The notes beneath the pieces were generated by a model. It was not told where the DNA came from. It was given only the letters and a program-made list of their open reading frames with translations, and did not search any database. A program made the translations under genes and the position numbers. A DNA stretch of 40,788 nt, taken from Calditrichota bacterium (GTDB lineage: Bacteria > Electryoneota > B3-LCP). The stretch spans positions 1 through 40,788 of the forward strand of contig JAGVQJ010000036.1 in the NCBI GenBank assembly GCA_020051775.1, read 5' to 3'. Of this stretch, positions 3,328 through 22,933 are shown piece after piece (within the stretch, counting starts at the first letter, position 1; each line of letters opens with the position of its first letter).

Positions 3328-3770
3328 GGTGCCCGCACTGCGATAAACTGGGCGCGCGCGTCCTGGACAGCCGCCCCCTGCGTCACGGAAAGGCCATCCG
3401 TCGGCGCCGTGAATGTGAACATTGCGGCTGGCGTTACACTACCTACGAACAAGTCGAGGAACGCCTGCCGGTCGTGGTCAAACACGACGGCCGCCGCGAA
3501 GCCTTCGACCGTGCCAAGCTGCTGCGCGGTCTGGAACTGGCCTGCACCAAGCTGCCCATCCCGCGCTCGCACTTAGAAGAGATCTGCGACGAGATCGAAA
3601 CCGCCATTTCCGATTTGGGCGTAGAAGAAGTCACCAGCCGCCAGATCGGCGAATCGGTCATGGATCGCTTGCGCCGCTTGAATTCGGTAGCTTACGTGCG
3701 CTTTGCCAGCGTGTATCGCCGCTTCGAGGACGCCGGACAGTTTAGGGAAGAGGTGGAGAGGTTGGGGTAG
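3324..3770 (+). CDS. nrdR: transcriptional repressor NrdR
   Basis: NrdR represses ribonucleotide reductase genes in response to nucleotide levels through its ATP-cone. The 148-residue protein begins [17 protein letters not shown] and has the four-cysteine zinc ribbon (CPHC and CEHC about 28 residues apart), the RRRRECEHC basic patch and GWRYTTYE, then an ATP-cone domain from about residue 46 ([17 protein letters not shown]) ending RRFEDAGQF. Length and domain order are standard. The same frame is open further upstream to 3159, but that part is antisense-like shadow of the deaminase; the ATG in the ATGA overlap is the credible start. The stop is followed by a G-rich quasi-repeat (3776-3804). 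Confidence 0.96.
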
Positions 3771-4397
3771 GATTTGGGGCTATGGTCTGGGGGCTAGGGA
3801 CTAGTGAAATGTGGGCGCGATAATTCGCGGCCTAATCGAGCGAAAATTCGCGGAATAGGCGAAAAGTCGCGAGCCACGGACTGATTTATTCATCCCCCCG
3901 TCCCCCCTTGACAATGGGGGTGATTCACGGGTCAATGGAGGATGAACATCCCTTAGAGGGATGAATTTCAGTACCCCCCAGCGAAGGCCTGGTGCCCCAC
4001 AGCTCAGCTGTGGGTTCATCATTAAACAGATCCCCCCGCCCTCCTTCTGCCTCGGAGTACCCAGGTGGGAAATAAGGGGGGGATTGTTCGATCCGACAAC
4101 TGATGGATCGATTGCATGAGGGGGAGGGGCGTTCTTTTCCGGGAGTATTCCCGTGCGGACCGCTACGCGGAAAACCCCCGGCTATTCACGTTCGACTCCT
4201 TCGGAGTCGGTTTAAATCAGCGAAATCCGTTTAATCCGCGGAAATCTGTGATTCAGACAAGAGTAATACTGAACTTCTGTCGGAGTCAGGCCCCGTAGGG
4301 GCGACTACGCCGGGCGATCTCGACTACGGGTCATGCTTCGTCGCTTCGCGCCAGAAGCATGCCACCCCCTCGACAACCTTACCAACCACCAACCACC
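3771..4397. other. gene-free stretch with clustered palindromes
   Basis: No convincing gene is present in these roughly 630 bases. They hold a patchwork of short inverted repeats: a 19-base palindrome at 3996-4014 (cccacagct/agctgtggg), a 7-bp stem at 4193-4209 (cgactcc/ggagtcg), and gcccc-gta-ggggc at 4290-4302. There are also three spaced near-copies of an a-rich word ending tcgcg between 3820 and 3875, a ggggctatgg/ggggctaggg word right after the nrdR stop, and an accaaccacc run before the terminator. A forward open frame at 4116-4298 has a composition dictated by these elements and is not credible. Confidence 0.6.
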
Positions 4398-4430
4398 AAA
4401 AAGAGCGACCCTTTCGGATCGCCCTTTTTT
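4398..4430 (-). terminator. intrinsic terminator of the VCBS-repeat protein gene
   Basis: Read on the minus strand this is a 9-bp stem (gggcgatcc with gggtcgctc) closed by a GAAA tetraloop and followed by five U. Two of its pairs are G-U on the minus strand but would be A-C mismatches on the plus strand, so it is built to work for the leftward gene that stops at 4450. Confidence 0.85.
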
Positions 4431-4449
4431 CGCAGCTCGTAGCTCGAAG

Positions 4450-6411
4450 CTATTTAACTAATATCATCTTCCCTGTGGCCGTTAACTTCCCCGCCTCGAG
4501 GCGATAGAGGTAAATCCCCGAGGGCTGATTCGATCCATCGAACGTCACTTCGTGTGTCCCAGCCTCTCGCCAGCCATCCACTAATTTCGCTACTATCCTC
4601 CCGGCAGTATCATACACTCGTAAACTGACCTGACTTGCGGCTTGCAGCTTGAAGCTGATCGCTGTAGAGGGATTGAATGGATTGGGAGATAACGAAGTTA
4701 TGAGTGATGAATTATGAGTTATGAGTAGTGGTTCGGCTTCGTTGAATTCCTCCCCAGTATTCGTCCATTCGCTGAATCCAGAATCCTGAATCCCGTTTCC
4801 CGCCTTGGTGAAAACGAAGGCTCCGCTGCTCCATTTTGTGTTAACGTTCGCACCTGCGAAGGTGACGTAATTATATACTCCGCCCGGCGCAGAGGCAGGG
4901 ACAGTTTGCGTACGCACGCGGGAGATACTGGATCCGCCCGGCAGAGTAATCCCGGTAGGCCCTGTCACCGGGCCATACTCGGATCCATCAGGCAGAATAA
5001 CCATATTCCACGCTTGGAATGTCGCCGCCGTGGCATCATGATTGGTGATCTGCACGCTGTAGCTGAAGGACCCACCGCTGGAGGGAATACTGATGGGCGG
5101 GTTCTGCGGAGTCAGCATCACGGTCACATTGGGGTGACCCGAAACATGCAAGTCCTCATATATCCAACTCGGTGTGGCGTACCAGCCGTAATATTCCGTC
5201 CCCATCCACAAGATTTCGTCGTAACTGTTTAGATTGGCATCCATGGACTTCACGCCTACGCGAATCGAAGGCGCCGATGTGAGTAACTGCTCTTCGGCAT
5301 AAGCCTGCCCATTCCAACCATAGGCGCGCAAGACGTTCAATCCCCTCATAGCGAATTCATCGCGTCCATCATTGTCGAAATCTCCGGTGGCGCCGTAGGT
5401 CCCGCCATAAGATCCATCCTGGAAGGAGACTTGACCTTGCAGTGTGAAACTGCCATTTTCGGCTTCGTAGATCAAGGCAGTCCAACCATTTTGTGAACCC
5501 GATCCGAGACAGACAATTTCGGAAAGACCATTGCCACCCATGTCCTCGGCGGCGAGACACTGGAACATATTCGGCACTTGCGTAGCCTGATAATAAACCT
5601 GCACCAGTGAATCGTTACCCGCCGACTCGTAGACCCAGAAGTCGCCGCCGATGTTGGTCACAGCGATTTCCATCAGGCCGTCGCCGTCGAAATCATCAAT
5701 GGCGTGCGTGCCCAGCGGCGAACCGGGTAATTGGACCTCGAATACCTGTTGAAACTGATTGTTGCCGGTATTCTCATAGACGGTAAGATGATTGTCCGAT
5801 CCCAGGGAATTGCGCGAATGGATAATTTCCCTCAGGCCGTCTTGATCCAAATCAGCGATGGAGGTAGCACCCAGAACGTTGGGGATCTGAGGCGATTGCC
5901 AAACCATTTGCGTGGCAAATTGCCCGATTGAGGGTGATTCCCACACCTGAATAGTATAGGCAATTTGTCCCACGACCTCGTTCAAACCGTCTCCATCGGC
6001 GTCGCCGCACACCTGGGGATAGAGCAGCGCACCGGTTTGCCAAACCTGGTAAAAGCCGTTGAATCCGTTGGTCTCAAACGTGCGCGTGGTGTAACCACCT
6101 GTGGCGTTGGCCAGGATCGTGATCTCCATCAGGCTGTCGCCATCGGCGTCACCGAACGCCATCTCATAGTTGCCCGCTGTTATCGTCGAACCGATGGCTT
6201 TCAGATTCACCACGTCCGTGGGCGGTGCGATCCAGGACTGGCCCGGGATGATAAAGGCACGCGCATCATTAGGTTGAACCGGAAAACCCAGCGGATCCAG
6301 GATGGGGAGGGGCCAGGTGTCCGTCGCGTCGGGCGAGGCCTGGGCTGTCGCCAACTGGCACAATCCCACTGCGACAAACGCGGCAAGCTTTAAGAGAGTG
6401 GATAGCTTCAT
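4450..6411 (-). CDS. secreted FG-GAP/VCBS-repeat protein with C-terminal sorting domain
   Basis: The 653-residue protein starts with a signal peptide (MKLSTLLKLAAFVAVGLCQLATAQA) and is probably exported and attached to the surface. Residues about 70-430 form repeated beta-propeller blades with calcium-binding style motifs such as DADGDGLNEVVG, DLDQDGLREI, DFDGDGLMEIAV and DFDNDGRDEFAM. A beta-sandwich region follows (residues about 440-550). The end is a type IX-like sorting domain: LSPNPFNPSTAISFKL, SLRVYDTAGRIVAKL and a final GKMILVK. A Shine-Dalgarno aaaggag is placed well before the ATG. The linker before the sorting domain (LLITHNSSLITSL) is encoded by a ttatgag-type repeat word otherwise seen between genes (4697-4729). 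The ligand or enzymatic role is unknown. Confidence 0.85.
   Translation of the reverse strand: MKLSTLLKLAAFVAVGLCQLATAQASPDATDTWPLPILDPLGFPVQPNDARAFIIPGQSWIAPPTDVVNLKAIGSTITAGNYEMAFGDADGDSLMEITILANATGGYTTRTFETNGFNGFYQVWQTGALLYPQVCGDADGDGLNEVVGQIAYTIQVWESPSIGQFATQMVWQSPQIPNVLGATSIADLDQDGLREIIHSRNSLGSDNHLTVYENTGNNQFQQVFEVQLPGSPLGTHAIDDFDGDGLMEIAVTNIGGDFWVYESAGNDSLVQVYYQATQVPNMFQCLAAEDMGGNGLSEIVCLGSGSQNGWTALIYEAENGSFTLQGQVSFQDGSYGGTYGATGDFDNDGRDEFAMRGLNVLRAYGWNGQAYAEEQLLTSAPSIRVGVKSMDANLNSYDEILWMGTEYYGWYATPSWIYEDLHVSGHPNVTVMLTPQNPPISIPSSGGSFSYSVQITNHDATAATFQAWNMVILPDGSEYGPVTGPTGITLPGGSSISRVRTQTVPASAPGGVYNYVTFAGANVNTKWSSGAFVFTKAGNGIQDSGFSEWTNTGEEFNEAEPLLITHNSSLITSLSPNPFNPSTAISFKLQAASQVSLRVYDTAGRIVAKLVDGWREAGTHEVTFDGSNQPSGIYLYRLEAGKLTATGKMILVK
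4697..4729. repeat. ttatgag quasi-tandem word inside a coding region
   Basis: Plus-strand text of repeated (g)ttatgag/gatgaa units. The same vocabulary forms an inverted repeat in the intergenic region 23440-23515. Here it is in frame and encodes the THNSSLITS linker of the secreted protein. Confidence 0.65.
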
Positions 6412-6535
6412 ACCAAACTCCTTTCAATGATGCGCCAGGCCTCACTCCTGCGAAGTAAGGTTGGACGCCACACTTGGCTCTGCAGAACGCCCTTTTACTT
6501 TTTTTGCCTTGCAGCTTTTAGCTTGAGGCTTCCTG

Positions 6536-8059
6536 CTATTTTATCATTAACAGTTTCCCCATGACGTCGTTCTCTTTGATGATTTCCGGTTTGGAATCCA
6601 CCAGGCCTAAGATGCGGTCGGGCAGGTACTTCTTGTTGACGATCACCATGATGACGTACTCGTCGAACCAATTGTCGTACATGGCCCAGTAACCGCCATC
6701 GCCTACATCGGTCCCCCAACTGTTCTCCACTTTCCATTTCAACGGTGTATCGTCTACCACGTCCACACCCACGAAGGCCATCGCGTGGTTGGTTTCTACG
6801 TTGCGATACAGCAAGTGCTCCGCCTTAGTGAACCGCGATTTCGTGCCGTAAATATCGTCATACTTGTACAATTCGGAGTTCAGGATGCCAGTCTTATTAT
6901 CCCGTTGAGGACCGATGTCCGCGCCGAACCATACTCCCTCATCGTTCAGGACCGACTGCAGCGCCGCCTTTTTCAGATCCACGATGCTGACGTTCAGGAA
7001 TTCACTATCCTTTTCGCCCCACATGTTGCGGCTGTTCTCCATAACGAAGCGTTTGTTCAAGTCGCGCGCGGGCACGTTGCCCAAGACCACATACTCCTCC
7101 ATCTTGGCTTTGACGTACTCTTCCGCAAATTGTAGAGGGGTATAAGTCTTCACCAGGCTGACTTTATCCTTGGCCAGATCTTTCAGTGCCTGGGTCTGAG
7201 CGAAATCCTTACTGTCGTTCCGGGATATGTTATCCATGATTTTAACCAATTCGTCCATCTTCCGTTCTTCATCCACTTTCGATTTGTAGCGGAAGGTGAA
7301 CTGCGTAGGCGGTACCCCCAAGTGGAAAGTCAGGATGTGGTAGATCTCCTTCAACAGCTCTTCTTTACGCGCGCGCAACTTTTCCACAGAAGCGCCCTTC
7401 TTATCCATGTCACGCAATTCGGCGGCGTCTTCCCGCAGTTTCTGGGTCAAAACATTATCCATTACCCCGGAATTTTCAGTGTGCTTAGTCTCGGGCATGG
7501 CACTCATCGGCACCACACCGTACTTCCTCACCAGATTGGAGAAGTATTCCCACCAACCGCCGTCGCCCACCGGATCAGTCAGGATGCGCTGAAAATTTTC
7601 GTCGCGCACGTCCATTTTGCGCCGCTTAATGACTTCTTCCAGGAAAGTATTGGACTTCTCGATTTTATCCCAGAAGAAGAGATAGTTTTGGGAAAACTCG
7701 AAGCTCTCATCCTCGATTTTCTCGATGACCGCCGGACGCAAAATATTCAAGCCGGCGTACATCCAGCAACGTCCCGACCCTTTCTGGTCGGTGATCTTCC
7801 CGGTTTTGATTTCGTGTGAAAAGTAGGGATTGTGATCCCGTAAAACCGAAGAGTTGACTGCAATTTGGCGTAGTTCGTTCTTCTGCACCGCGTCCATCAG
7901 ACGCTGCTCGTGGGCGTCCGGAGAGAAGCTCTTCTGCAGTTGGGCAATGTAAGCGCTATCCAGCGCACCAGGTTGAGTGGAAGGATGGGGATCTGCCGCC
8001 AGGCATAAGCTGGTTACCAAAAGGATCGGCAGTTGCATGGTGGTTAAAGTCTTCATCAT
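6536..8059 (-). CDS. secreted C1B-family cysteine peptidase (bleomycin hydrolase / aminopeptidase C type)
   Basis: This 507-residue papain-fold peptidase belongs to the bleomycin hydrolase/PepC family, which trims peptides from the N-terminus as a hexamer with the active sites inside. The catalytic set is complete: ITDQKGSGRCWMYAG (oxyanion Gln and catalytic Cys, near residue 98), TNHAMAFVGVD (His) and VENSWG (Asn). It ends GKLLMIK, consistent with the conserved C-terminal tail that dips into the active site in this family. Unlike the cytoplasmic relatives of about 450 residues, it starts with a hydrophobic signal-like segment (TMQLPILLVTSLCLAADP), so it is probably periplasmic or outside. 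Two ATG codons (8059, 8056) follow a GGGA; either may be used. An agcttttagcttgagg-type word overlaps the region after the stop. Confidence 0.92.
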   Translation of the reverse strand: MMKTLTTMQLPILLVTSLCLAADPHPSTQPGALDSAYIAQLQKSFSPDAHEQRLMDAVQKNELRQIAVNSSVLRDHNPYFSHEIKTGKITDQKGSGRCWMYAGLNILRPAVIEKIEDESFEFSQNYLFFWDKIEKSNTFLEEVIKRRKMDVRDENFQRILTDPVGDGGWWEYFSNLVRKYGVVPMSAMPETKHTENSGVMDNVLTQKLREDAAELRDMDKKGASVEKLRARKEELLKEIYHILTFHLGVPPTQFTFRYKSKVDEERKMDELVKIMDNISRNDSKDFAQTQALKDLAKDKVSLVKTYTPLQFAEEYVKAKMEEYVVLGNVPARDLNKRFVMENSRNMWGEKDSEFLNVSIVDLKKAALQSVLNDEGVWFGADIGPQRDNKTGILNSELYKYDDIYGTKSRFTKAEHLLYRNVETNHAMAFVGVDVVDDTPLKWKVENSWGTDVGDGGYWAMYDNWFDEYVIMVIVNKKYLPDRILGLVDSKPEIIKENDVMGKLLMIK

Positions 8060-8143
8060 CGAATCCCTTAGCTAAGATATATTGTTGCATATTAGACTAT
8101 CGGCAGGGCTATTTTGTTGCCCGTGTAATTGGACGGGAGGACT

Positions 8144-9328
8144 TTATATAATGGCCAGAACTTTTCCTACTTTTTCAAACGCTGCCAACGCTCGATCCAG
8201 ATCTTCGACCTCGTGCGCTGCTGATATCTGCACACGAATGCGCGCCTGGCCTTTGGGCACAACGGGATAGGAGAAAGCGATGACATAGATACCTTCCGCC
8301 AATAGGCGCGTAGCCATGTCCACCGCTGGTTTGGCTTCATGCAACATGATCGGTACAATGGGATGAATCCCCGGTTTTATGGCAAATCCTCGTTTTTTCA
8401 TCCCTTCCCTGAAGTACTGGGTGTTTCTGCTCAGTTTGTCTCTAAGGTCGGTGGATTCCTCGAGCAGATCTAACACCGAAAAGGTAGCGCCCACAATGAC
8501 CGGAGCCAGCGAATTTGAAAACAGATAGGGGCGGCTGCGTTGGCGTAGAGTATCAATCATCTCCTGGCGACCGGCGGTGGCTCCTCCCAATGCGCCTCCC
8601 AGCGCCTTTCCGAAAGTGGTGGTGACCAGATCCACCCGGCCTTCAACTCCGCAGTGTTCGGGTGTGCCCCGACCGGTAGCGCCAACGAACCCGGTGGCAT
8701 GTGAATCGTCCACCATGACCAGAGCATCATACTTTTCGGCCAGGTCGCAGATGCTTTTAAGATCGGCGATGTCGCCGTCCATGGAAAAGACGCCGTCGGT
8801 GACGATCATGCGGAAGATGCAAGATGATGACTCCTTGAGCTTTGCCTCCAAATCCTCCATATCGCCATGCTTGAATATCTGGCGACCGGCTTTGGACAGC
8901 CGCACGCCGTCAATGATTGAAGCATGATTTAGGGCATCGGTCAAGATGCAGCAATCCTCGGTCATGAAGGGTTCGAATACTCCGCCATTGGCGTCGAAAC
9001 AGGCAGCGTAGAGAATGGCATCATCCAGACGTAAAAAATTGGCCAACTTCCGCTCCAACTCTTTATGAATTTCCTGGGTGCCGCAGATGAACCGCACCGA
9101 AGAAGTCCCATACCCCCATTGATCCAGCGCTTGATGAGCCGCAGCGATCACCACCGGATGCGATGACAGACCCAGGTAATTGTTGGCGCAGAAGTTCAAC
9201 AATTCGCGCCCGTTGACTTTGATCCGTGCGCTTTGCGGGGATTGTATGATGCGTTCTTCTTTGAACAGTCCTGTAGACCGGAAATGGGCCAGCTCAGCGG
9301 AAAGTAGCGCTTTGAGTTTCGTGTACAT
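8144..9328 (-). CDS. alpha-oxoamine synthase, glycine C-acetyltransferase-like (paralogue 1)
   Basis: A PLP enzyme of the Kbl/BioF family (394 residues) that condenses an acyl-CoA with an amino acid, most likely acetyl-CoA with glycine to give 2-amino-3-ketobutyrate. Visible family landmarks are [16 protein letters not shown], the [14 protein letters not shown] segment, [10 protein letters not shown] (PLP-stacking and binding residues), the [13 protein letters not shown] lysine loop, and [17 protein letters not shown] at the C-terminus. It is clearly paralogous to the product of 17236-18483, but ends [10 protein letters not shown] without the KYGILGLGKK tail of that protein. No threonine dehydrogenase gene is adjacent, so the pathway is not fixed by context; BioF-like or other oxoamine synthase activity remains possible. 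Confidence 0.88.
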
Positions 9329-10572: not shown

Positions 10573-10980
10573 TCATCCGGAAAGGGTAACCGTCTTCGGC
10601 CATTTCTGAATGATCTGGAGGATTTCACGCACGTAGGCGCATTCACAATCCACGGAACAGGGGCGCATATCGTCCTTATAAAGGCAATATTTCGGGCAGT
10701 CTTCAGTACCGGTAGCGCGTTTTGAGGCAATCGGTCCATGGTATAAATTCTGAAAATGCCTGACTTGCATAGATAATGTGGTTCCACAGCTATGATTGAA
10801 TAAAAAAAGTCCAAATTTCAGGTCAATGAAGTTGGTTTGGTATCCAATAACGGAAATCTCAGGATCGGTCAGCAAGGATTTCTGGTCAGGCCAGGAAGAA
10901 TTGCACACAGCGCAATTTAAAAAGCCCTCAGCGAGTTTGGCATTTATCGCCACCGATTGTACCGGTTCGATCGCTTCCAT
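10573..10980 (-). CDS. cysteine-rich conserved protein of unknown function (paralogue A)
   Basis: A 135-residue cytoplasmic-looking protein with no signal peptide or membrane segment. Eight cysteines are shared in position with the neighbour at 11196-11570: a CxxC near residue 23 (CAVC), one in FNHSCGTT, two in CPKYCLY, and a cluster RPCSVDCECAYVRE near the C-terminus. Such spacing suggests bound metal (zinc or iron-sulphur), which is inference. Other shared blocks are DPEISVIGYQTNF and FGLFLFNHSC. ATG 10980 has an excellent AAGGAG six bases upstream; the frame continues 12 codons further but without a start of equal quality. I do not recognise a named family. The 177 bases upstream are AT-rich and probably hold its promoter. 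Confidence 0.75.
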   Translation of the reverse strand: MEAIEPVQSVAINAKLAEGFLNCAVCNSSWPDQKSLLTDPEISVIGYQTNFIDLKFGLFLFNHSCGTTLSMQVRHFQNLYHGPIASKRATGTEDCPKYCLYKDDMRPCSVDCECAYVREILQIIQKWPKTVTLSG

Positions 10981-11195
10981 GAAGCTCCTTATGTTCCAGC
11001 TAATCCTCTGAGTCAACCAAATTCATTAAATTACTTTTCCTTAAAAATACCACTAAATTGTTAATCCAGCAGCCTTAGTAATTTAACCGATTTTAATAAG
11101 GAAAGCAAATAATTACATGAAACTCATAACCACAAAGATAAAAATCCCCCCTCTACCGGCAGGATTTGCACCTTTAGAAACGGATTATTTGGGGG

Positions 11196-11570
11196 TTAGC
11201 TGTGCTTCGGCCAATCCCTTAGAATCGGAATAATCTCCCTCACCCAGGCGCATTCGCATTCCAAGGGACATGGGCGTACCTCGTCCTCATAAAGGCAATA
11301 TCCAGGACAGTCAGCCGCGGCCGTCAAAGCCTCGTTAAAAATCGGGCCGGAGTAAAGATCCTGTACTTCCTGAACCTTTATGGCGACCGTTGTTTTACAG
11401 GTGTGGTTGAAAAGAAACAGTCCCGCCTCTGGACGCTTGAAGTTGGTTTGGTATCCTACATAATCGAGTAACGGATCACTCAAAAATGCTGTTCGGTCAG
11501 TCCAAATTTCGCCGCACATCGGGCATTGCTTGAATACCTTAAGGAAAACTTCAGGCATAGTTTCCATCAT
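11196..11570 (-). CDS. cysteine-rich conserved protein of unknown function (paralogue B)
   Basis: This protein of about 124 residues is a diverged copy of the product of 10573-10980, on the same strand and directly upstream of it. All eight cysteine positions are kept: CPMC, FNHTCKTT, CPGYCLY and RPCPLECECAWVRE. The shared frame includes FLSDPLLDYVGYQTNFK and AGLFLFNHTC, and both end in a W-P-K motif. Two adjacent ATG codons (11570, 11567) follow GGGAG; the second has the better spacing. The family is unknown to me. Tandem duplication with full cysteine conservation argues that the cysteines are functional, perhaps as a metal site. Confidence 0.75.
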   Translation of the reverse strand: MMETMPEVFLKVFKQCPMCGEIWTDRTAFLSDPLLDYVGYQTNFKRPEAGLFLFNHTCKTTVAIKVQEVQDLYSGPIFNEALTAAADCPGYCLYEDEVRPCPLECECAWVREIIPILRDWPKHS

Positions 11571-11680
11571 GTCTCCCAATATGGTTATTAAGAATTACGG
11601 TAAAATATCACGGGATGGGAGGGTATTTCAGGATTATTTGAATGGGAAAGCGATAGAAGGTTGTGGATGAATTGGATTTG

Positions 11681-13706: not shown

Positions 13707-13851
13707 AGGTCCTCCATTTGATAGGATCGATATATTCTAAGATTTTACGCTAGGGCGGTCAAAGTCGTTGGCCTGTCTGTGAAATTGTACTCATGTAGAG
13801 GGGGGAGGTTCCGAGGGGGGAACTTAAAAGTGATCGCATATTAAAGGATAA

Positions 13852-13875
13852 ACCCGGCCTGCAAGCAGGCCGGGT
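13852..13875. terminator. terminator-like hairpin downstream of the TIR-like cassette
   Basis: acccggcctg-caag-caggccgggt, a perfect 10-bp stem with a 4-base loop, about 70 bases past the stop of the leftward TIR-like gene. The minus-strand flank is T-rich (ttatccttt). Confidence 0.65.
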
Positions 13876-13946
13876 CACGACACAGCCCAGCTTAGCGTAA
13901 TACTTGATGCACAAAAATCTTTTTAAGCATATCGTTGTTTCTTGAT

Positions 13947-15275
13947 TTAGTCTCTTCTCGCATCTTTTGGTGAGTTTACTCTTTTTTTATCATCTCGAGT
14001 GGTTTTATGGTTTATGATAAAATCAAGTTTGGTTAGTTTCGCGAAAATATTTTCAGACCTGGTTGTTGCTTTATTAGGAGTAAATAATTCTCTTCTAAGC
14101 CGATTAATCTCTTCGGTCAACAAAAAATTGTGGTGAGCAATAGAGTTCATCATTAAATTAGATAAATTTCTCACGGAACGTAAATTATAACACAGCTCTT
14201 CATAGTGAGCCGCTTCATCCTCAATGGTGAGATCCAGGTGATTTGAAAATTCCTCACAAATTGAGTGATGAACGGCACAATCTGTCAAAAATGCCACAAC
14301 ATTTGATTTGGCCAGATTCCCAACATTTGGGTTTTCATCGAATAATTTGAGAATCCTGTGATATTCATCCTTCAAATCCTCCGTCACTTTGTAAATGTTA
14401 TGAATGGTCGGAATAGTCACTGCAATTTGTCCGCCTTTTTGGTCTCCAAATGGAGTTAAAAAGCGGTCGCATAGGTGGGTGATTTTTGTCAGGATGTCCA
14501 ATATTTCAAACCCCCGGTTGAGTTTAATATTCCATCGCAGAAAATCGCAAACCAATCCAATGCTGGCCTTTCCCAGGCAACTGCTTCGAAAATAGTAGGA
14601 GAGGCATACTCTCTCGTATGACCAAAACGGAAAATACGTACCTGGCATGGCATATCTCACCGGATCTGGAAGCTGCTTAATTTTGTATCTTTTATTGTTG
14701 TTAGCCCGTTCTACAGTAGAGAGAATCGGTTTGGTCACCAGACTATCCGTGGCATCATCGGTCGAAGCGATTTCACAACCTGCTATTTTAAATGCTCCGA
14801 TGAGATCACCTCTGGTTGTGTAATTCACGGTGGAAATTTCATTCAATTGGATATATTGCATAAATTTAAATGAATCAGACATATGGATAAGGTTAAAGTA
14901 TCGAATATCTCCCACTTGCAATACGATTACTTGTTTGGTAAATGATTCACTCCGGACCATCAACATTCCCAACAATAAGATGATCTCAGGGTTTGGCTGA
15001 AAACCGTTATTATTTTCACCACCAATTGAAAAATCAAGAGTGGCCCTGTCCTCTGGCGTCAGCAGCACCACCACGGCTTGATGATTCTTGGAAATCGAGT
15101 TCGCAAAGTCTTCCTGCGTACTGCTGGACTTGATTGCATCCAGGGAAGATAATTCCGTACAAAAAAGGCCGAGTGAGTTCAGAAATTGGATCACGCGATC
15201 GGCACAACCGCGATCTGAACCCGAAACGAGAAGTACACTTTTCTTAAGCGGTGGTTTTCCTTTTCTTCCAGCCAT
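13947..15275 (-). CDS. TIR-like domain protein lacking the catalytic Glu, with an unknown helical C-terminal domain
   Basis: The 442-residue protein has an N-terminal nucleotide-binding TIR-like domain (residues about 12-165): SVLLVSGSDRGCADRVIQFL, QAVVVLLTPEDRATLDF, and the helix that in the family reads NVIFExG but here reads PEIILLLGM, so the usual Glu is Leu101. The linker (about 165-195) also matches the upstream gene product. Residues about 195-425 are mostly predicted helix with conserved-looking aromatic and cysteine residues (for example FWSYERVCLSYYFRS and HHNFLLTEEINRLRREL) and match nothing I know. GGAG precedes the ATG by five bases. The gene is 37 bases after the first TIR-like gene, so they form an operon. 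It is markedly AT-rich next to its neighbours, suggesting transfer. A defence or signalling role is inference. Confidence 0.8.
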   Translation of the reverse strand: MAGRKGKPPLKKSVLLVSGSDRGCADRVIQFLNSLGLFCTELSSLDAIKSSSTQEDFANSISKNHQAVVVLLTPEDRATLDFSIGGENNNGFQPNPEIILLLGMLMVRSESFTKQVIVLQVGDIRYFNLIHMSDSFKFMQYIQLNEISTVNYTTRGDLIGAFKIAGCEIASTDDATDSLVTKPILSTVERANNNKRYKIKQLPDPVRYAMPGTYFPFWSYERVCLSYYFRSSCLGKASIGLVCDFLRWNIKLNRGFEILDILTKITHLCDRFLTPFGDQKGGQIAVTIPTIHNIYKVTEDLKDEYHRILKLFDENPNVGNLAKSNVVAFLTDCAVHHSICEEFSNHLDLTIEDEAAHYEELCYNLRSVRNLSNLMMNSIAHHNFLLTEEINRLRRELFTPNKATTRSENIFAKLTKLDFIINHKTTRDDKKRVNSPKDARRD

Positions 15276-15312
15276 TTTAACTCCAGAATTGTGTACCCGA
15301 ACAGGTTAGAAG

Positions 15313-15882
15313 TTATATGGTAACAACCTTACTATTTCTCGACGAACGAGATTCGATCGTTGACCGGATTAGAGGTGATTTCAGGTAATCGTAATTGGAA
15401 AGCACATAATCGGGTATGACACAGCCGCATAGTTTTAAATTTGTTACAATTCGCTTCCTATTCTGAACATCAGTGGATTTCAGTTCGTTTATCTCAATCT
15501 TATGGATTCCCGTTAAATCCGAAAAAGGTCTAACAATTCCGACTTGTAGAAGTATCAGCCTCTTGTTAAATCCCTGCCATGCCATACCGGTTTCGAAGAT
15601 GACATTGGGTCTAGATATGTAACCTTCCTCACTTCCCAAACGAGAATCGAGTTTAGAGAACTCATCAGGTGTAAACAGCGCAATTATACCTTGAGCTGTT
15701 TTCATTGCCGTTTTAATAATTTGTATAATTGACGGCGGTGTCCCCAGCTCCTCACGACATTTAACTTGTAAGTCAGAGAATAACGGGCAATCAAGTCGCA
15801 AGCTCTTGACGAATAGTCTTACGGCTTCGGAGCACTCTGTGTCTTTCCCGGATATCAAAAAGACAGTTCTTGATTTTTCCAT
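15313..15882 (-). CDS. TIR-like nucleotide-binding domain protein (catalytic Glu kept)
   Basis: A 189-residue protein that is almost entirely the TIR-like domain of the kind found in CBASS Cap12 and prokaryotic Argonaute-associated effectors, where it cleaves NAD. The pattern is RTVFLISGKDTECSEAVRLF, GIIALFTPDEFSKLD, then RPNVIFETGMAWQGF with the expected catalytic Glu (about residue 97), and RLILLQVG and IHKIEIN. Its last 40 residues match the linker of the downstream 442-residue protein (KSPLIRSTIE against TKPILSTVE), so the two are full-length paralogues up to that point. ATG 15882 is preferred to the TTG one codon upstream; only a weak AG-rich sequence serves as ribosome site. It is AT-rich and first in a two-gene operon. 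Confidence 0.82.
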   Translation of the reverse strand: MEKSRTVFLISGKDTECSEAVRLFVKSLRLDCPLFSDLQVKCREELGTPPSIIQIIKTAMKTAQGIIALFTPDEFSKLDSRLGSEEGYISRPNVIFETGMAWQGFNKRLILLQVGIVRPFSDLTGIHKIEINELKSTDVQNRKRIVTNLKLCGCVIPDYVLSNYDYLKSPLIRSTIESRSSRNSKVVTI

Positions 15883-15885
15883 CAA

Positions 15886-16117
15886 TCATCTTTCTACTTG
15901 GTATTCGTTAGATCGCCGAGGGAATCCACAGCTCAGTTGTTATGAAAGTAAAACTTTAATTTTATTTAATCAACACAACACAGCCCCAATATACAACAAC
16001 GAAATCTCCTTGACAAGTCTTTTTTAATATTTTTGGATGCTTCAGAAACTCTCTAGGTCATTTCGCAACCGTAAAAAAATGCGTGCTATATTTATTCAAG
16101 TCGTTAGAGATACAAAA
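15886..16117. other. AT-rich leader region upstream of the TIR-like cassette
   Basis: No gene is visible in these roughly 230 bases. They must hold the promoter of the leftward TIR-like operon, but I find no convincing -35/-10 pair. A plus-strand TTGACA at 16010 has no matching -10 at 16-18 bases. A ccacagctcag word at 15928 resembles part of the palindrome at 3996-4014. Confidence 0.4.
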
Positions 16118-16133
16118 GCCCGATTTCTCGGGC
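16118..16133 (-). terminator. small terminator downstream of the TylF-type gene and kbl scrap
   Basis: gcccga-tttc-tcgggc, a 6-bp stem. On the minus strand it is followed by tttt, which fits an intrinsic terminator for leftward transcription. Confidence 0.7.
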
Positions 16134-16187: not shown

Positions 16188-16275
16188 TTCTCACATCCCA
16201 TACATCTCAATAATCACTTTCTTCCCCAACCCTAGGATGCCATACTTCGCGCCGACCTTCTTCCGGGCCGTCAGG
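16188..16275 (-). pseudogene. duplicated 3' scrap of the kbl gene
   Basis: About 88 bases match the 3' end of the Kbl gene at 17233-17320, roughly four bases in five by eye, with the same reading direction. In frame it still encodes KKVGAKYGILGLGKK and a terminal IEMYGM, against KKVGAKYGILGLGKK and IEKYGM in the intact gene. The upstream part of the enzyme is absent; the frame continues only into the antisense of the TylF-type gene end. The scrap and the intact copy bracket the methyltransferase gene. A quasi-tandem acttgtat word (16150-16185) adjoins its end. Confidence 0.8.
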
Positions 16276-16317: not shown

Positions 16318-17115
16318 TTATTCTCGCTTTTTAACCATGCATTGGGTGTCCCACAAATGAATAAACTCCTCGGGAGTATCACGAAAATATTCATCGAAAG
16401 CGCGTTTAACGCCGGGACAAGTTTGTGAGTAATAATCGTGCGAGATTATAACGCCGCCGGTTTGCAGGCGGGGGTAAAAATATTTGAGACCGGAGAGGGT
16501 GGATTCATAGATATCGGCATCCAGATGCACGAAGCAGAATTCAGTATTTTCAGGAAGGTCGCCCGCCGAATCCGGAAAAAATCCCTTATGGAAAAAGCAG
16601 TTTGTATATTCTCTCAGATACTCTTGTACTTTTCCCAGACTGGTATCAGCAAAATCCCCCTCATGATGTTGATCAACCTTGCGGTCCACGGTAGGCATAC
16701 CCTGAAAGGTATCGAAAAGGTGCAGCGGCCGTTCGGCCTTGAATTCACTGATTAATTTGGCTCCGCCGCCTTTGTAGACCCCCAGTTCCGCTATCGCCCC
16801 GCCCAAGGGAAGCGTAGCTGTTAAATAGTGATAAATGTTGTAGGATTCTCTTAAAGTCAAAATCATCCGATCTTCACGAACCAGCCGCCACCAAGTCTCC
16901 AAAAACTTCTCCTCCGTCGTGATGGTGCAGTTTTTCAATTGGAGAAGACGAAAGACAAAGGACGGTTTGATGTTCCTGAATCGCGCCATTATTTTCATTA
17001 ATTTCATGAGGCTTACTCTGGAGGATTGCGGTTGGCTATCTACTATCTGGTCGCTGTTTATTACCCATGATGCAAGATTATAGGTTGATTTAATTTCAAC
17101 CCAATTTAAGGGCAT
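16318..17115 (-). CDS. TylF/macrocin O-methyltransferase-family protein
   Basis: A SAM-dependent O-methyltransferase of the TylF/MycF family, which in other bacteria methylates sugar hydroxyls on macrolides or surface glycans with help from a metal ion. Landmarks are GGAIAELGVYKGGGAKLI (SAM loop), LHLFDTFQGMPTVD, FCFVHLDADIYESTLSGLKYFYPRL (metal-binding acidic residues) and GGVIISHDYYSQTCPGVKRAFDEYF. Up to 265 residues are encoded; a start at about 17008 (MKLMKIMARF) is also possible and neither has a clear ribosome site. It lies between the intact kbl gene and a scrap of kbl, which suggests it was inserted or caught up in a tandem duplication. The substrate is unknown; no glycan cluster is visible nearby. 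Confidence 0.87.
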   Translation of the reverse strand: MPLNWVEIKSTYNLASWVINSDQIVDSQPQSSRVSLMKLMKIMARFRNIKPSFVFRLLQLKNCTITTEEKFLETWWRLVREDRMILTLRESYNIYHYLTATLPLGGAIAELGVYKGGGAKLISEFKAERPLHLFDTFQGMPTVDRKVDQHHEGDFADTSLGKVQEYLREYTNCFFHKGFFPDSAGDLPENTEFCFVHLDADIYESTLSGLKYFYPRLQTGGVIISHDYYSQTCPGVKRAFDEYFRDTPEEFIHLWDTQCMVKKRE

Positions 17116-17235: not shown

Positions 17236-18483
17236 TCACATCCCATACTTCTCGATGATCTGCTTCTTTCCCAACCCCAGAATTCCGTACTTCGCGCCGA
17301 CCTTTTTGAAGGCTGCAAGGCCTTTGTCCAGGTGCTTCTGGTCGTGAGCGGCGGAAAGCTGTGTGCGAATTCGCGCCTGGCCTTTGGGCACCACCGGGAA
17401 GAAGAATCCTACCACGTAGATCCCTTCGGCGAACATATCGCGGGCCACGTCTTGAGCTAACTTGGCGTTGTAGAGCATCACCGGCACAATGGGGCTATCG
17501 CCCTCTTTTATGTCCAGGCCGATCTCCTTAAGACCCTTGCGCCAGTAGTTCGTGTTCCATTCCAGCTTGTCGCGGCGCTCGGTGGTCTTGGAAATCAGGT
17601 CCAGCACCTTCAGTGCGCCCGATACGATAACTGGCGCTACCGTATTGCTAAACAGGTAGGGACGCGCCTTCTGACGGCACATTTCTACCAATTCCTTGCG
17701 GCCTGATACGCACCCGCCGGAAGCTCCACCCAGAGCCTTGCCCAGCGTCGTGGTGATGATGTCTATTTTGCCAACCACGCCGCCGTACTCGTGAGTGCCA
17801 CGTCCCATCTTGCCCATGAAACCGGAAGCATGCGAATCATCCAGGAAGACCATAGCGTTGTACTTTTCCGCCAGCGCCACGATCTGATCCATGTGCGCCA
17901 CATCGCCGTCCATGGAGAAGACGCCATCGGTGATAATCAGGCGGTAGCGTTTGTCCTGGTGCTCCTGCAGCTTCTCTTCCAGGTGCGCCATGTCAGAATG
18001 CTTGTAAGTGTCGGTCATGGCCTTGCACAGGCGCATGCCGTCCACGATGGAAGCGTGCACCAGACGATCGGAGATCATCACGTCCTGGTCGGTCAGCACG
18101 GCTTCGAAGACTCCAGCGTTGGCGTCCATGCAACTGGGAAAGAGCAGCGTATCTTCCGTCCCTAAAAACTCGGTCAGCTTTTTCTCCAATTCCCGATGGA
18201 TGTCCTGCGTCCCGCAGATGAAGCGCACCGAGGACATGCCGTAGCCTCGGGTGTTCAACCCTTCGTGCGCCGCCTGCACGACATCCGGGTGGCTGGACAG
18301 CCCCAAGTAATTGTTGGCGCACATGTTGATGACGTGCTTGACCGGCGACCCGGCCGGGAACTCGACCTCGATCTCCGCTCCCTGTGGAGCGTGGATATAG
18401 CGCTCTTCTTTGAACAGACCAGCCTCTTTTATGCCGCCCAGTTCAGTTTGATAGGCAGCGCGGGCTTTATCACTGTATGCCAT
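17236..18483 (-). CDS. alpha-oxoamine synthase, glycine C-acetyltransferase-like (paralogue 2, ACP-linked)
   Basis: A 415-residue PLP enzyme of the Kbl/BioF/serine-palmitoyltransferase family. It shows [63 protein letters not shown] (PLP lysine) and [21 protein letters not shown]. It is longer than paralogue 1 because of an ending KKVGAKYGILGLGKK plus a short tail. By sequence it looks like glycine C-acetyltransferase. By context it lies downstream of an acyl carrier protein, an acetyl-CoA-synthetase-like ligase and acpS, all on the same strand, so an acyl-ACP substrate or a lipid-type product should be considered. A strong terminator (17160-17193) ends the unit. The 171 bases separating it from the ACP gene are filled with three palindromes. 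Confidence 0.88.
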   Translation of the reverse strand: MAYSDKARAAYQTELGGIKEAGLFKEERYIHAPQGAEIEVEFPAGSPVKHVINMCANNYLGLSSHPDVVQAAHEGLNTRGYGMSSVRFICGTQDIHRELEKKLTEFLGTEDTLLFPSCMDANAGVFEAVLTDQDVMISDRLVHASIVDGMRLCKAMTDTYKHSDMAHLEEKLQEHQDKRYRLIITDGVFSMDGDVAHMDQIVALAEKYNAMVFLDDSHASGFMGKMGRGTHEYGGVVGKIDIITTTLGKALGGASGGCVSGRKELVEMCRQKARPYLFSNTVAPVIVSGALKVLDLISKTTERRDKLEWNTNYWRKGLKEIGLDIKEGDSPIVPVMLYNAKLAQDVARDMFAEGIYVVGFFFPVVPKGQARIRTQLSAAHDQKHLDKGLAAFKKVGAKYGILGLGKKQIIEKYGM

Positions 18484-21390: not shown

Positions 21391-22341
21391 ATGAATAGAT
21401 TAGATGATTTGTTAACATATTCCTATCCAAATGTAACTAAAGAAGTTGCATGTAGTGGAGAGTTATTTCTTATTTTTAATACAAATGCCTTTAAATGGCT
21501 CGAATCTGCAGAAAGTAATTCAATCCACGCAGTTGTAACAGATCCGCCTTACGGTCTATTGGAATACACTCCAACCGAACTCGAGAAATTAAAGAATGGG
21601 CGTGGGGGGGTGTGGCGAATTCCACCTTCTTTCGATGGCTGTTTAAGAAGTCCATTACCAAGATTTACTGTCCTCGGTTTAACTGAGAAGAAGGCATTAT
21701 ATGAGTTCTTTACCGCGTTGGCGAAACATTTAATGCATGTTCTTGTCCCTGGAGCCCATGCTTTTATTGCCACAAATCCCCTTGTTTCCTATTTGGTTTA
21801 TAATCCGTTCATTGAAGCCGGTTTTGAAAAACGAGGCGAAATAATACGTGTGGTACAAACTTTAAGAGGTGGTGATAGACCTAAAAATGCTCATCTCGAA
21901 TTCTCTGATGTCACGGTGATACCTCGATCATGTTGGGAGCCTTGGGGATTATTCAGGAAACCGTGTGAAGGTCGTGTCCAAGATAACCTACGAAAGTGGG
22001 GGACTGGCGGATTAAAACGCATCTCCCCTAAAGAACCATTTAAAGATTTGATCATTTCATCACCTGCAAGAGGACTTGAAAGGGAAATAGCACCGCATCC
22101 ATCGCTGAAACCGCAGCATTTTATGCGCCAAATTGTGAAGGCATCATTACCCCTTGGCACCGGTACTATTCTTGATCCCTTTATGGGATCAGGTTCAACA
22201 ATTGCGGCTGCCTGTTTTAACGGGTATAAAAGCGTAGGATTAGAAATAAATCATGAATATTACAAACTCGCTAAAAAAGCAATCCCAAGGCTGGCAAATA
22301 TAAAATTAAATGGAGATGGACGGAATGGTTCAACAAAATGA
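21391..22341 (+). CDS. DNA methyltransferase, amino-methylating, beta-type motif order
   Basis: A 316-residue site-specific DNA methyltransferase. The catalytic DPPYG (near residue 51, in HAVVTDPPYGLLEYTP) comes before the SAM-binding LDPFMGSGSTIAAA (near residue 270) and is followed by GLEINHEYYKLAKKA. This is the beta-class order of N6-adenine or N4-cytosine enzymes. The gene is AT-rich unlike the acpS cassette on its left, suggesting transfer. Its 3' end overlaps the next gene, whose product is a likely cognate endonuclease, giving a compact restriction-modification pair. ATG 21391 has no strong Shine-Dalgarno; a TTGACA at 21339 lacks a good partner -10. The recognition sequence is unknown. 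Confidence 0.9.
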   Translation: MNRLDDLLTYSYPNVTKEVACSGELFLIFNTNAFKWLESAESNSIHAVVTDPPYGLLEYTPTELEKLKNGRGGVWRIPPSFDGCLRSPLPRFTVLGLTEKKALYEFFTALAKHLMHVLVPGAHAFIATNPLVSYLVYNPFIEAGFEKRGEIIRVVQTLRGGDRPKNAHLEFSDVTVIPRSCWEPWGLFRKPCEGRVQDNLRKWGTGGLKRISPKEPFKDLIISSPARGLEREIAPHPSLKPQHFMRQIVKASLPLGTGTILDPFMGSGSTIAAACFNGYKSVGLEINHEYYKLAKKAIPRLANIKLNGDGRNGSTK

Positions 22342-22933
22342 CTTTAATCCGCAGGTGAAATTGCCTCCCGGTTTGACAATCACGGCGATTAAAAAGACTA
22401 TTGAATATATGGAACGTGAATTGGCCGATCTTGTGGATATATATTTTGAACAAGCAAATGTATTTAGTGCAATCGTCGGTATTTTTGCTACCAAAGCACT
22501 TTCCACTCAAAGCATTTATGAAAAATGCAGGCATCTAGATATTGCACAGCAGAGATTCCCAGATCTCCACAAACGAGGATCTGGTGATAATCCATCACCT
22601 ATTGAATGCCTTGAATGCAAGGCGAGTAAACGAGCTTGGGCAGTTCAATCTCATTATGATCATTCGGGGTGGTACATAGTCTGGAGGTATTTAGTTGATC
22701 AGACTTGCTCCTTTGAACCAGACAGACCTGTGATCGTTTGGAGGGTAGATGTAATATTCATTGAGAAAGATGATTGGAAATATGAAGGGAGCAGCGCTGG
22801 TTCATCTGGCGGGGGGCGAACACATACTTTTGGACTAAAAAATCCTGCTCAGAAGTTGAAAGATAAAGCAGTATATAAAAGAATTGACGTAACTATTAGT
22901 GATGGAAAGGCAATTGCTAAGAATGGATCGTAG
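22325..22933 (+). CDS. probable type II restriction endonuclease
   Basis: A protein of about 202 residues whose gene overlaps the 3' end of the methyltransferase gene. The middle carries a candidate PD-(D/E)xK site: a D followed by PSPIECLECKASKRAWAVQ, with the E-C-K as the ExK pair. It continues with SHYDHSGWYIVWRYLVDQ and an alternate-hydrophobic VIVWRVDVIFIEKDDW strand. An internal Gly/Ser-rich loop (SSAGSSGGGR) follows. I cannot name the family with certainty; the call rests on the motif, size and coupling to a methyltransferase. ATG 22325 has GGAG nine bases upstream; ATG 22310 and 22316 are alternatives. It is AT-rich like its partner. Confidence 0.6.
   Translation: MVQQNDFNPQVKLPPGLTITAIKKTIEYMERELADLVDIYFEQANVFSAIVGIFATKALSTQSIYEKCRHLDIAQQRFPDLHKRGSGDNPSPIECLECKASKRAWAVQSHYDHSGWYIVWRYLVDQTCSFEPDRPVIVWRVDVIFIEKDDWKYEGSSAGSSGGGRTHTFGLKNPAQKLKDKAVYKRIDVTISDGKAIAKNGS

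Follow-up and report, generated by a model that had tools for sequence, protein, structure and literature searches.

Two adjacent paralogous genes in the window (the whole 40,788-nucleotide stretch of DNA that was analysed), here called A and B, encode TIR domains of unequal condition: that of A keeps the residues of a NADase active site, while that of B has lost them and is joined to a helical region without recognizable relatives. The pair may be an acquired immune cassette, in which the NADase A is gated by B through TIR-TIR contacts and the helical region senses the trigger, a reading to which a probability of about 0.5 is given. The features concerned are the following:

15313-15882, minus strand: gene A, 189 aa from the ATG at 15882, with an alternative in-frame TTG at 15885
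15592-15612, minus strand: catalytic motif of A, R91-P-N93-V-I-F-E97, equivalent by alignment to SfSTING R78, N80 and E84
15276-15312: gap of 37 bases between A and B
13947-15275, minus strand: gene B, 442 aa from an ATG, a PF10137 match and paralogue of A
14685-15275, minus strand: residues 1-197 of B, predicted pseudo-TIR and tail, homologous to A over its full length
14973-14993, minus strand: motif N95-P-E97-I-I-L-L101 of B, replacing R-x-N-x3-E
13950-14684, minus strand: residues 198-442 of B, about 245 residues beyond the TIR, predicted helical with low confidence, candidate sensor or regulator
15988-16016, minus strand: promoter-like site TTGTCA-17-TATATT, about 105 bases 5' of A, with 10/12 matches
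13851-13876, minus strand: terminator-like hairpin 3' of B, of 11 pairs including 8 G-C
16118-16133, minus strand: terminator-like hairpin 5' of A, setting A and B apart from a TylF-type gene

Both proteins score above the curated Pfam cut-off (24.7 bits) of PF10137 (CAP12-PCTIR_TIR, the TIR of CAP12 and Pycsar effectors), A with 57.6 bits (E=1.6e-15) and B with 29.3 bits (E=9.3e-7, residues 14-126). In the TIR-STING protein SfSTING, the NAD+ site is formed by R78, N80 and the catalytic E84, together with D110 from the opposite TIR (PMC9402430). Alignment of A to SfSTING, made via a related TIR, places R91, N93 and E97 of A at the first three positions and D122 at the DD-loop Asp D110, so that A keeps the R-x-N-x3-E motif and all four equivalent residues. 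By these residues, A looks like an enzyme of the TIR NADase type. At the likely nicotinamide-stacking position it has Phe where relatives commonly have Trp, a replacement that might change its activity. Structure prediction of the single proteins, which a preliminary description of this DNA had proposed as a check, gave a TIR fold for A (AlphaFold, pLDDT 90.7), and a fold search placed this model near TIR-STING (ranks 2-4), SEFIR/MyD88 TIR and SPARTA, with TIR-STING and the SPARTA TIRs as the closest bacterial folds.

By contrast, the residues of B at the SfSTING R, N, E and D positions are N95, E97, L101 and L129, the last of these being a less certain replacement because B has an insertion in the loop at that point. 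The B TIR is on this evidence a predicted pseudoenzyme, lacking the R, N and E and probably also the Asp. This split between a live and a dead domain was missed in the preliminary description, which treated the two TIRs as equivalent. Loss of the catalytic residue is unusual, since the Glu is kept in 35 of 39 distinct PF10137-type TIRs, counted in loci found by profile without any motif requirement; a second set, found by motif pattern, was set aside for this count, its pattern having admitted only E or L at the catalytic residue. Apart from B, the Glu is missing from the CATRA-protein TIR at an Actinoplanes locus (L102), from locus L148 and from part of locus L157. The degenerate domain is nevertheless predicted to fold, with pLDDT 70-93 over most of its length, and a fold search with it returned TIR-STING first, with the SPARTA TIRs also ranking high. 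No useful match came from searching PDB sequences with A, with B or with the TIR alignment. Because its TIR is degenerate, B is more likely a regulator or sensor than a second enzyme.

The two TIRs are recognizably related to each other (BLASTP E=2e-18, 27% identity over 192 positions), bearing out the earlier claim of paralogy, and the homology extends past the Pfam domain into the tail (..PLIRSTIESR.. in A, ..PILSTVER.. in B). A and B also share a 4-residue insertion (INELKSTD in A, LNEISTVN in B) that is absent from the other aligned relatives. In a tree of 51 TIRs they are sisters (support 91/72), and 97% of the bootstrap trees group them in a single clade. This join would be weak by itself because both branches are long (3.8 for B, 2.25 for A), and is backed by the shared insertion and the homologous tail beyond the Pfam domain. 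The simplest history would be duplication of one TIR gene, after which B lost its activity and gained the helical region (or A lost that region).

The helical region had been described as an unassignable domain of about 230 residues, and so it proved: residues 198-442 of B are predicted to be all-helical with low confidence (block-mean pLDDT 32-76, zero alignment depth), as expected for a region without relatives. Searches with it gave no match beyond chance in Pfam or PHROGs and none among PDB sequences, and no relative was found by protein search in 386 genomes, nor, for this part of the protein, among plasmids and phages (queried with whole B) or in IMG/VR (close relatives only). Assignments as HEPN, CATRA or Death-like were tried and received no profile match at loose thresholds, and no known fold was assigned, the predicted model being too weak as a search query. 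The best genome match (locus L027) overlaps a Fic-type protein and is ascribed to chance; a STAR_dimer match (E=0.07, 20 residues) and fold matches to viral polyproteins are likewise chance results of helix composition.

The layout of the locus is as first described, with two adjacent leftward open reading frames separated by 37 bases. B is preceded directly by a GGAG ribosome-binding sequence, while sites resembling the promoter-like site 5' of A are no commoner in the region upstream of A than in shuffled sequence. The reported AT-richness also holds: G+C is 40.7% in A and 40.5% in B versus about 50-57% across most of the window, and codon usage deviates in parallel, with a similarity to the host of 0.54 for A and 0.59 for B versus 0.65-0.79 in 16 other genes of the window. 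A and B thus both stand out as acquired genes, by base composition as well as by codon usage. The site appears to be variable, since other genes and DNA follow the kbl gene in a relative (G004), although no clean empty site was observed there.

The surrounding genes are chiefly metabolic and secretion-related. Neither a CD-NTase nor a short Argonaute occurs among the scanned neighbours, in agreement with the earlier statement that no cyclase or Argonaute is nearby. The closest defence-type gene, 5.5 kb away, encodes a type II DNA methyltransferase. It belongs to an AT-rich, codon-atypical methyltransferase pair (21391-22933, plus strand; PADLOC MTase_II, E=2.8e-117) and is overlapped by a 207-aa open reading frame without Pfam or PADLOC match, possibly its restriction enzyme. 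The proposal of a candidate defence system stands in part: the use of this TIR family in defence and the foreign composition favour it, but no dense defence island surrounds the locus.

Several repeats occur in the window. Two paralogous genes resembling 2-amino-3-ketobutyrate CoA ligase (8144-9328 and 17236-18483, 56% identical) lie on either side of the variable region containing A and B, and the 3' end of the second, kbl-like gene is present as an 88-base, 80% identical copy at 16188-16275, beyond the TylF-type methyltransferase gene (16318-17115); this copy is a kbl remnant of duplication or insertion. Two tandem paralogous small Cys-containing open reading frames without Pfam assignment are found at 10573-11579 (73% identical over 108 bases of DNA).

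A-type TIRs are present in many phyla and on IMG/VR contigs, and their neighbours include type I restriction genes, a Thoeris ThsA-macro gene in Amycolatopsis (L074), and CATRA-N and TPR-CHAT genes in L102. Among 117 proteins neighbouring A-type TIRs, 11 match the PADLOC candidate PDC-M14A. A separate recurrent arrangement, seen in actinobacteria (L019, L020, L037, L046, L057 and others), consists of a TIR of about 300 aa with an extra C-terminal domain, directly followed by a Cys-rich protein; this is the type that matches PDC-M14A and constitutes a recurrent two-gene candidate system, and in L057 two TIR units lie near each other.

For the conserved two-gene pairing that the preliminary description had proposed to survey among homologues, the homologues were lacking: the searches recovered neither another A-B pair nor a homologue of the helical region, and the nearest analogue is a single CATRA locus in Actinoplanes. 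Of 386 genomes sampled for relatives and 299 from the order of Actinoplanes, just two, that of the window and that of L102, showed separate TIR genes side by side. No A-B-like pair occurs in the five remaining genomes of the window's family, one of which (G002) has a TIR protein of different architecture. In L102 (positions 3510-8952, Actinoplanes sp. RD1), a protein joining CATRA-N to a degenerate TIR (motif D-H-D-V-L-L-R), a stand-alone active TIR of 189 aa and a TPR-CHAT protein are encoded in series; judged by these motifs, it is an independent case of the live/dead TIR arrangement.

TIR NADases work in assembled form, a neighbouring TIR ordering the BB loop and contributing residues to the site (PMC9402430; PMC10474274); therefore a dead TIR could either complete or block the active site of A. 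With the site kept in A and lost in B, which carries the extra helical region, A and B resemble an enzyme and its built-in regulator or sensor, probably serving antiviral defence. A plant precedent is the contact of the RRS1 TIR with the RPS4 TIR, by which RPS4 is held in check as long as its sensor partner has not been triggered (PMC9528088). In the mechanism proposed here, the cassette would have arisen by horizontal acquisition and duplication of a single TIR gene, A retaining the NADase site and B losing it while carrying the helical region that probably receives the trigger. The dead TIR of B would dock onto the TIR of A via the usual TIR-TIR surfaces and, in the resting state, keep A inactive or dispersed. 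On meeting a trigger (e.g. a phage component), the helical region would cause B to nucleate or release assemblies of A, and degradation of NAD+ by A would then arrest growth of the infected cell (abortive infection). Binding of A to B, NADase activity, trigger sensing, abortive infection and the role in defence are all steps that we infer.

Adjacent active and dead copies of one domain, foreign in composition, would also suit a toxin-antitoxin system, the toxin being A, as a NADase with constitutive activity, and the antitoxin B, mainly as a dead-TIR cap that neutralizes it; capping of this kind would need no sensor. Such a system would act on loss or degradation of B, and would serve maintenance of the cassette as much as defence. 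Yet the toxin gene would come first and the putative antitoxin would be the larger of the two, 245 of its residues forming an extra region unneeded for simple neutralization, and the window contains no plasmid, integrase or tRNA context; this explanation is considered unlikely. ThsB proteins make a messenger of the cyclic ADP-ribose type, and A could do the same, with B or a distant effector responding. The A-type TIR beside ThsA-macro in Amycolatopsis fits such signalling, and the pseudo-TIR of B might still hold a nucleotide, but B is without the residues that do so in SfSTING, and no effector gene adjoins A and B. The genome has no match to the ThsA-macro model PF20016, for which the control was weak; the STALD model PF18185 likewise had no match, a result without weight because its control matched nowhere. 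Signalling of this kind is judged distinctly unlikely.

The long branch of B and its C-terminal region without relatives could alternatively reflect decay: B would then be a copy of A in the course of degeneration, joined to unrelated sequence and without function, and A alone would be of importance. An intact frame of 442 codons with a good ribosome-binding sequence, and a TIR still recognized by PF10137 and predicted to fold confidently, make this improbable. A housekeeping or regulatory NAD- or nucleotide-binding pair outside defence would accord with the ordinary metabolic neighbours and the lack of a dense defence island, but hardly with the foreign composition, the lack of the pair in the five other family genomes searched, or the repeated association of this TIR family with defence genes, and is thought very improbable. 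The reading as an immune cassette gated by B is preferred.

A more specific and more tentative proposal, which we regard as possible though open to real doubt, is that A and B correspond, in bacteria, to the paired immune receptors of plants, a NADase TIR being held and switched by its dead sister TIR with a new helical sensor. Catalytically silent TIR adaptors such as MyD88 and TRIF are central to animal immunity, as are TIR pairs to plant immunity; the characterized bacterial TIR systems, to our knowledge, use enzymatic TIRs. If the proposal is true, the pairing of an enzyme with a dead TIR adaptor would have arisen at least twice, given the Actinoplanes CATRA locus. An operon of live and dead sister TIRs would provide a minimal, testable model of how duplication gives rise to dead adaptors that then take control of a NADase, and B would add an uncharacterized candidate sensor domain.

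Among known systems, bacterial TIR-STING/CAP12 (SfSTING, PDB 7un8) shares the PF10137 TIR with both A and B, and the R-x-N-x3-E motif and DD-loop Asp with A. CBASS Cap12/TIR-STING differs in having a STING domain and a CD-NTase, neither of which is found in A, B or their scanned neighbours, and in A-B the TIRs are divided between two proteins, one of them predicted to be dead. The CATRA/TPR-CHAT locus of Actinoplanes resembles A-B in its TIR family and in combining a stand-alone active 189-aa TIR with an adjacent helical protein carrying a degenerate one, but there the extra part is CATRA-N/C, is N-terminal and has TPR-CHAT next to it, whereas the helical part of B is unrelated and C-terminal; CATRA models gave no match to it up to E 10, and no CHAT occurs among the scanned neighbours. 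In Thoeris (ThsA macro and the TIR protein ThsB), an A-type TIR can adjoin ThsA-macro, as in L074, whereas no ThsA, of the macro or the SIR2-SLOG type, adjoins A-B. PADLOC PDC-S35 is matched by A in its TIR half only (profile positions 87-216 of 245, E=6.5e-11), PDC-S35 profiles having about 80-130 residues ahead of the TIR that A lacks; PADLOC does not describe PDC-S35 as paired with a dead TIR, unlike A. In SPARTA, TIR oligomerization puts a NADase TIR under the control of a sensor module of its own (PMC10474274), resembling the model proposed for A-B, but with a short Argonaute and APAZ, neither being present among the scanned neighbours. The plant proteins RPS4/RRS1 likewise form a pair, in which the sensor-bearing member restrains the other by TIR-TIR contact (PMC9528088); these are full NLR receptors with sensor domains unrelated to that of B, and the likeness is one of logic only. 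On its domain and motif content, the A-B pair is best placed with TIR-NADase immunity, as a candidate system distinct from CBASS Cap12, CATRA, SPARTA and PDC-S35.
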